A DNA stretch of 64,000 bases from Pseudomonadota bacterium (lineage in GTDB: Bacteria; Pseudomonadota; Gammaproteobacteria; Burkholderiales; Thiobacillaceae), in the NCBI GenBank assembly GCA_021802555.1, contig JAJZRU010000003.1, positions 1-64,000 on the forward strand. Direction: 5' to 3'. The notes beneath the pieces are model-generated. The model saw nothing but the letters and a program-made list of their open reading frames with translations, ran no database searches and was not told the origin of the DNA. Below, one piece after another: positions 27,189-27,310 of this stretch; position 1 is the stretch's first letter; every line of letters begins with the position of its first letter. A program made the position numbers and the translations under genes.

Positions 27189-27224
27189 AAAAAAATGCCC
27201 CGGCCAAAGGGGTGGTCCGGGGCA
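27189..27224 (-). terminator. Strong intrinsic terminator, minus strand, between engB and hemB
   Basis: TGCCCCGG/CCGGGGCA (27196-27203 and 27217-27224) form an eight-base GC-rich stem. On the minus strand it is followed by seven T (27195-27189). On the plus strand the hairpin is followed by A's, so it cannot end engB. No protein gene upstream on the minus strand needs it, which argues for a minus-strand RNA. Confidence 0.75.
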
Positions 27225-27310
27225 AAAATGCCTTATTAGCAAATAAGGCACCCGCTCAGGGAGGAGAAGCGGGAGACGATCAACACCGTCTGTCGCTGAG
27301 AGGGTGGGGG
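27189..27310 (-). ncRNA. Putative small RNA with anti-Shine-Dalgarno hairpin loop
   Basis: No gene fits between engB and hemB, yet the minus strand has the build of a trans-acting small RNA. Read 5' to 3' on that strand: a weak hairpin GACGGTGTTGATCGTC (27290-27275); a stem CCCGCT/AGCGGG (27273-27251) that displays the loop TCTCCTCCCTG; a second stem GCCTTATT-TGCT-AATAAGGC (27249-27230) plus ATTTTT; and finally a GC-rich terminator with seven T. The exposed CUCCUCCC is complementary to ribosome-binding sites. Spot 42 in E. coli is likewise encoded convergent to engB (yihA), so the position has precedent. The 5' end is a guess and no clear promoter was found. Confidence 0.45.

Follow-up and report, generated by a model that had tools for sequence, protein, structure and literature searches.

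The window, by which we mean the whole 64,000-nucleotide stretch of DNA analysed here, carries engB for a GTP-binding protein at 26568-27158 (Pfam MMR_HSR1), in a layout that matches the E. coli YihA locus, and hemB (Pfam ALAD) from ATG 27390 or GTG 27354 to 28358, both on the plus strand. Divergent from engB lies a two-domain cytochrome c gene (25770..26495, minus strand; Cytochrom_C in two stretches), a neighbour that recurs in relatives and that we infer, as a name only, to be cytochrome c4-like. An initial annotation of this DNA had proposed three hairpins on the minus strand of the engB-hemB gap, and all three are present where it had placed them. The first, CCCGCT-TCTCCTCCCTG-AGCGGG (27273-27251, minus strand), carries the 11-base CU-rich loop UCUCCUCCCUG (27267-27257); the second, TGCCTTATT-tgct-AATAAGGCA (27250-27229, minus strand), is directly followed by five T; and the third is a GC-rich terminator stem-loop (27223-27197, minus strand) running into an A and seven T (27196-27189). 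Missed in that first reading were a fourth, 5' stem-loop, AGACGGT-gttg-ATCGTCT (27291-27274, minus strand), and a candidate sigma-E-type promoter (27324-27297, minus strand) with a -35 element GGAACC at 27319..27324 and a -10 element CTCTCA at 27297..27302.

Placing the start at A27291, six bases past the -10 box, yields a predicted small RNA of 103 nt (27291..27189, minus strand), which does not overlap hemB and whose computed fold, at -49.6 kcal/mol, consists of four adjoining stem-loops. For the slightly longer stretch 27310-27186, the folding energy is -53.2 kcal/mol, whereas dinucleotide shuffles average -32.8 kcal/mol (sd 3.5); the z is -5.9, and none of the 200 shuffles was equally stable. 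Because the Pfam-identified engB and hemB are both plus-strand genes, neither explains these minus-strand signals, which bears out the earlier remark that no protein gene needs them. The RNA's own terminator escaped a simple terminator scan, and the one terminator-like site that the scan returned (27405-27391) is unrelated to the RNA.

Searching Rfam, we found positions 27276-27189 of the minus strand to match family RF02837, anti-hemB, at 77.2 bits against a cut-off of 49.5 (E 2.2e-16) and over its full length (model positions 1-81 of 81), as the sole match above cut-off in the window's own genome among 150 scored of 502 candidates. The minus-strand small RNA gene is real and conserved and belongs to an already catalogued family, and the suggestion that it might be an undescribed betaproteobacterial regulator has to be given up: besides its Rfam entry, the family has been mapped in Burkholderia cenocepacia as ncS04 (PMC5688073, PMC4603805; here and below, cited papers are represented by the portions accessible to us). 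The Burkholderia member was mapped at 105 nt and copurified with Hfq (PMC5688073, PMC4603805), and its neighbours, BCAL0264 and BCAL0265, which we infer to be hemB and engB, are oriented as in the window (PMC4603805). The window RNA resembles RF02837/ncS04 in sequence, structure, loop and orientation to both neighbours (PMC4603805), but its 5' hairpin is absent from the Rfam model, which does not cover the promoter either. In B. pseudomallei, Anti-hemB is classed as trans-acting (PMC3521395). A stated function was not found in the accessible literature under either name, anti-hemB or ncS04.

The model of the toxic small RNA family RF02278 scored the window RNA at 23.9 bits, against a cut-off of 50. 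RNAs of that type, NcS27 and S17, resemble it in having unpaired stretches rich in C and U, for which covering of ribosome-binding sites has been proposed (PMC5688073, PMC11722255), but differ in having two hairpins and in lying at other loci. A separate RF02278 gene is present elsewhere in the genome (L005 1501-1562; G000:C43:55379-55440, plus strand; 62.1 bits), which therefore carries two kinds of CU-rich small RNA. Three weaker RF02837 matches in the same genome were rejected: L002 and L003 (31.6 and 26.5 bits, below cut-off) have neither a CCTCCC loop nor a good sigma-E box, and L004 (26.1 bits) is the RF02278 gene itself.

In a wider survey, 104 of the 150 genomes searched within the order had an RF02837 match above cut-off, as did 21 of the 369 drawn from the class, 18 of the latter outside the order; at E 0.001, the class count rose to 168/369. 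Since a control search gave below-cut-off matches in 3 of 14 well-known genomes, weak matches alone prove nothing, and we therefore compared places. The 32 order-level sequences used for this comprise the window, 29 of the 30 best-scoring loci (L001 being the window's own) and two from the class search, and the order-level conservation figures lean upwards because best-scoring loci were chosen; the 27 class-level sequences are the best-scoring RF02837 loci outside the order. Two covariance models were built, R1 from 31 order-level and R2 from 44 class-level sequences. R1 was also run on 28 class-level loci picked by EngB score (the engB-seeded test). The class-level alignment A4 underlying R2 draws on the 27 covariance-model-seeded loci and on 12 of the 15 engB-seeded loci with matches. 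The three omitted are L078 and L089, which come from the genomes of L017 and L030, and L093, the weakest. A4 is free of the two chance rows (~10 bits) present in the 33-row alignment A3.

Built from relatives outside the order, R2 recognized the window RNA over its full length at 82.5 bits (E 1.3e-15), with the next best match in the 64 kb at 18.9 bits, and matched all 31 order-level loci, with scores of 50 to 88 bits. As a check in reverse this is not independent, since the class-level sequences had been found by RF02837 or R1; independent evidence comes from position and promoter, neither of which enters the models. Two further places in the window, 31335-31536 and 22409-22476, gave weak matches to the class-level model (17-19 bits) and are probably other terminator hairpins.

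The initial annotation had named a lack of compensatory stem changes among relatives as grounds for abandoning the idea, and such changes are present: in the 44-row class-level alignment, which was fitted to the structure and so leans towards it, both sides changed in 20 of 20 pairs, and 94.9% of cells pair versus 74.4% in shuffles and about 60% when the partner was slid by one column. Alignments not fitted to the structure gave both-side changes in 10 of 21 pairs at order level, where the first hairpin barely varies, and at class level recovered parts of the first and last hairpins and not the second. In the stem-loop with the CU-rich loop, CCTCCCTGA is invariant in all 31 aligned order-level sequences, and the stem covaries among the class-level ones. 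Similarly, a 5' stem of at least 5 pairs directly before the Rfam model was found in 30/32 order-level and 23/27 class-level sequences, compared to 15% and 16% of shuffles, with letters that differ between lineages. What the initial annotation proposed, a small RNA gene that converges on engB and exposes a CCUCC loop, is well supported.

Turning to gene neighbourhood, a protein search for EngB returned a match in 361 of the 369 class genomes. A position test with one best place per genome could be made in 59 of the 369, among the matches listed, and in 44 of these 59, again among the matches listed, the best RF02837 match was convergent to engB and no more than 1 kb downstream. The 15 others consist of 10 genomes in which the RNA match and engB lie on different contigs, one in which they are 2.7 Mb apart, two in which they lie near each other on one strand (G014, G086), and two with distances of 2.1 kb (G288) and 4.6 kb (G263). 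At order level, engB is visible in 28 of 32 loci (all except L006, L036, L058 and L061), convergent in 25 and on the same strand in three, and hemB is the next gene in 24/32. Among the 27 class-level loci, engB was seen in 15, always convergent, and polA in 16 (once as a short piece), always running in the direction of the RNA and lying on its upstream side, with six loci showing neither. This arrangement of polA, RNA and engB corresponds in order and direction to polA, spf and yihA of E. coli K-12.

The engB-seeded test gave matches at E 0.003 or better in 15 of its 28 loci, all of them at the 3' side of engB; 14 are convergent and one (L086) lies on the engB strand, with a sigma-E box likewise on that strand (10/12). 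In L092, a match at E 0.058 lies at the other side of engB. The RNA gene seems able to invert, sharing the strand of engB in L046, L060, L062 and L086. The cytochrome c gene divergent from engB was found in 25/26 order-level, 22/28 engB-seeded, 9/13 RNA-seeded class-level and 1/3 Pseudomonas loci. At L022, a c-di-GMP-I riboswitch (2037-2121, minus strand; 77.9 bits) sits between polA and the small RNA.

Aligning the DNA upstream of the RNA revealed GGAACT, with which the window's GGAACC lines up, at a near-fixed distance from TCTNA. Published sigma-E boxes read GGAACTTTT at -35 and GTCAAA at -10 (PMC1804206). We scored GGAACTT-N15/16-GTCNAA (maximum 12, threshold 9, start 42-62 bases before the model), a consensus that was picked after viewing the alignment, though it is itself a published one. 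Boxes of at least 9/12 occur at the expected place in 27/32 order-level and 21/27 class-level loci, compared to 0.66% and 1.2% of random windows, 5000 per set, drawn from those loci. The window's own box, GGAACCA-N15-CTCTCA, reaches 8/12 and so falls below threshold, as do L051 (8) and L006, L047 and L060 (none recognisable) at order level and six of the 27 class-level loci. Where an order-level relative has a good box, as 27 do, the predicted transcript is 92-110 nt long, near the 105 nt measured for ncS04 (PMC5688073, PMC4603805), which counts in favour of a sigma-E promoter.

The factors that such control would require are encoded in the same genome: RpoE (313.5 bits), followed by RseA and RseB and preceded, as judged by eye, by the same kind of box (TGAACTT-N15-GTCTTT), as well as two Hfq matches above cut-off (96.6 and 92.8 bits; L159, L160). 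Comparison with relatives suggests that the anti-hemB RNA may be switched on by envelope stress. The sigma-E promoter, together with a locus shared beyond the order, is the part of this analysis that may be new, as no paper stating either was found in the literature on the RNA family and the locus, searched for the most part outside subscription journals.

With respect to the shared locus, the observation that Spot 42 of E. coli sits convergent to engB (yihA) is correct, in the K-12 order polA, spf, yihA, and proved the most useful lead of the initial annotation. Spot 42 agrees with the window RNA in slot and direction between polA and yihA/engB, but a significant match in sequence or structure is lacking, leaving position alone in common. 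We tried and rejected homology between the two: RF02837 is not one of the 11 matches that the K-12 spf gap gave at E up to 5, R1 had no match there at E up to 1, and R2 scored 17.3 bits (E 0.1). Conversely, the Spot 42 model RF00021 gave no match in the window at its gathering cut-off and none over 27000-27500 at E up to 1.

A second RNA in this position is ErsA of Pseudomonas aeruginosa, which sits in the polA-engB gap (PMC8575079) and is 132 nt long and strictly sigma-22 dependent (PMC7565897). The corresponding gap of P. aeruginosa PA7 contains TGAACTT-N16-GTCAGA, from which a transcript ending with the T-run would be 131 nt long, and two P. oryzihabitans records contain CGAACCT-N15-GTCTGA, giving 128 nt. 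At this slot, R2 scored 26.9 bits in PA7 (E 0.001) and 32.7 and 32.3 bits in P. oryzihabitans, with background matches reaching 20.2 bits, and R1 scored 14.0 bits (E 0.024) in PA7 only. ErsA was rejected as a member of RF02837 itself: the one weak PA7 match (29.7 bits) is far from engB, and the two P. oryzihabitans chromosomes had no match at E 0.001. ErsA and the window RNA are alike in their place beside engB and convergence upon it and in a C-rich loop in the terminator hairpin, and probably also in a sigma-E-type promoter and the involvement of Hfq (PMC8575079, PMC7565897), but ErsA is longer, is missed by RF02837 and has weak class-level-model scores, and on the window's other side lies hemB, not polA.

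A third relative in position is sX13 of Xanthomonas (RF02232), found above cut-off in 3 of 340 genomes, where it adjoins polA. Like the window RNA, it forms stem-loops with C-rich loops, and it represses through G-rich sites near starts (PMC3771888); unlike it, sX13 acts without Hfq (PMC3771888), has no sigma-E box at any of the three loci (scores 7, 8 and 7) and reaches 22-24 bits with R2. RF02232 itself gave no match in the window's own genome at E 0.001. Below its cut-off, RF02232 matched 11 genomes at E 0.001, and in three (G171, G082, G234) it did so at the RF02837 place, a coincidence that links the two families. As for the remaining genomes, the match lies beside engB in G137, in an array with RF02837 matches in G279, and on another contig than the listed RF02837 match in G123, G015, G021 and G064; G232 and G297 have no RF02837 place among the matches listed. 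It has already been noted that the polA locus is common to sX13, Spot 42 and, in alphaproteobacteria, the ar7 RNAs, which likewise form three stem-loops with C-rich motifs (PMC3771888); no mention of betaproteobacteria was found in the accessible portion of that account.

Could these RNAs have separate origins, the engB gap being a convenient place in which anti-hemB, the polA-side RF02837-like RNAs, ErsA, sX13 and Spot 42 arose, or to which they moved, independently? The insignificant Spot 42 score, below the strongest background matches, would fit, as would the failure of RF02837 to find ErsA, the lack of a sigma-E box at sX13, the 10 of 59 comparable genomes, among the matches listed, with RF02837 match and engB on different contigs, and the 13 of 28 engB-seeded loci that had no match at E 0.003 or better. 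Against it, anti-hemB and the class-level RF02837-like RNAs agree in position, promoter box, hairpin order and loop, and RF02232 and RF02837 coincide in three genomes. We consider independent origins rather unlikely, while granting them some weight.

As the best explanation as a whole, with a probability of roughly 0.7, we favour a sigma-E-driven, Hfq-bound anti-hemB RNA whose loop pairs with ribosome-binding sites and whose gene occupies an ancestral locus beside engB. Envelope stress would free RpoE, which would then transcribe the 103-nt RNA from A27291; Hfq would bind this RNA, and its UCUCCUCCCUG loop would pair with GGAGG-type ribosome-binding sites of unlinked mRNAs, blocking their translation. 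The gene would share its locus by ancestry with the RF02837-like RNAs between engB and polA, and probably with Pseudomonas ErsA. Given the exposed, invariant CCUCCCUG, the U-rich tail and the fact that ncS04 binds Hfq, the RNA would most likely act in trans as a repressor of translation. For the related C-rich RNAs NcS27, S17 and sX13, action at ribosome-binding sites or at nearby G-rich sites has been reported or predicted (PMC5688073, PMC11722255, PMC3771888). Pairing the loop with the start regions of a porin, engB, hemB and two other genes gave no value below the 5% background value of -13.3 kcal/mol; the whole RNA reached a raw, uncalibrated -24.2 kcal/mol at the porin start.

The same RNA might instead be a housekeeping or growth-linked one, transcribed by sigma-70 or by another ECF sigma factor, with GGAACT read by a factor other than RpoE and with the pairing unchanged. 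We judge this unlikely. By qPCR, the level of ncS04 did not change significantly under any of the seven conditions tabulated, among them osmotic stress (PMC5688073). This result argues against a strong induction by stress in B. cenocepacia under those conditions and would suit housekeeping control, as would the imperfect box of the window and the seven further, weaker sigma-factor matches that a protein search with RpoE returned in its genome. On the other hand, a sigma-70 scan returned one site only (26574-26546) and none near the RNA start, the box agrees with the published sigma-E consensus, as do the lengths predicted from it with the measured one.

Far less probable is that the RNA acts in cis, as an antisense or leader element belonging to hemB, which the family name and the frequency of hemB as the next gene at order level might imply. 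The 5' end of the RNA at ~27291 lies at least 63 bases before hemB and the two are divergent, class-level loci have polA rather than hemB on that side, and the listing of Anti-hemB as trans-acting (PMC3521395) argues in the same direction; nothing in the analysis suggests an action of the anti-hemB RNA on hemB. That the hairpins, two of which have a minus-strand T-run behind them, are mere terminators of flanking transcripts is hardly credible given that engB and hemB are both plus-strand genes, that the loop is invariant and the promoter box conserved, and that an expressed member has been mapped in Burkholderia (PMC5688073).

Extending the favoured sigma-E-driven reading, one may tentatively imagine a single sigma-E-driven ancestor adjoining engB for anti-hemB, the polA-engB RF02837-like RNAs, ErsA and sX13, older than the split of betaproteobacteria from other gammaproteobacteria (beta and gamma being assigned to the relatives from order, class and gene layout). 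Such a gene would have served as an ancient envelope-stress brake on ribosome-binding sites, and xanthomonads, perhaps also enterics with Spot 42, would have kept the slot and rewired promoter and sequence. We regard this scenario as possible, at somewhat less than even odds.

The role of an envelope-stress small RNA is filled by RybB and MicA in enterics and by ErsA in Pseudomonas. With the RNA already catalogued, its control and its descent are what would matter: if the sigma-E promoter is real, anti-hemB would be an envelope-stress small RNA of betaproteobacteria, a counterpart of RybB, MicA and ErsA. If the locus holds one gene, RF02837, RF02232, ErsA and possibly RF00021 could be studied as one lineage, and the known targets of ErsA and sX13 would become predictions for anti-hemB.

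Two minor observations concern the slot itself. At L072, R1 found no RNA match, and a perfect 12/12 sigma-E box lies 3' of engB on the opposite strand, 267 nt from the end of engB, perhaps marking a small RNA of this slot that has diverged. In addition, the RNA occurs in tandem copies at several loci, with four in L150 (1499-2237), two in each of L011, L016, L017 and L030, and likewise two in each of L058 and L061 at order level; such sibling copies may allow dosage or target splitting.
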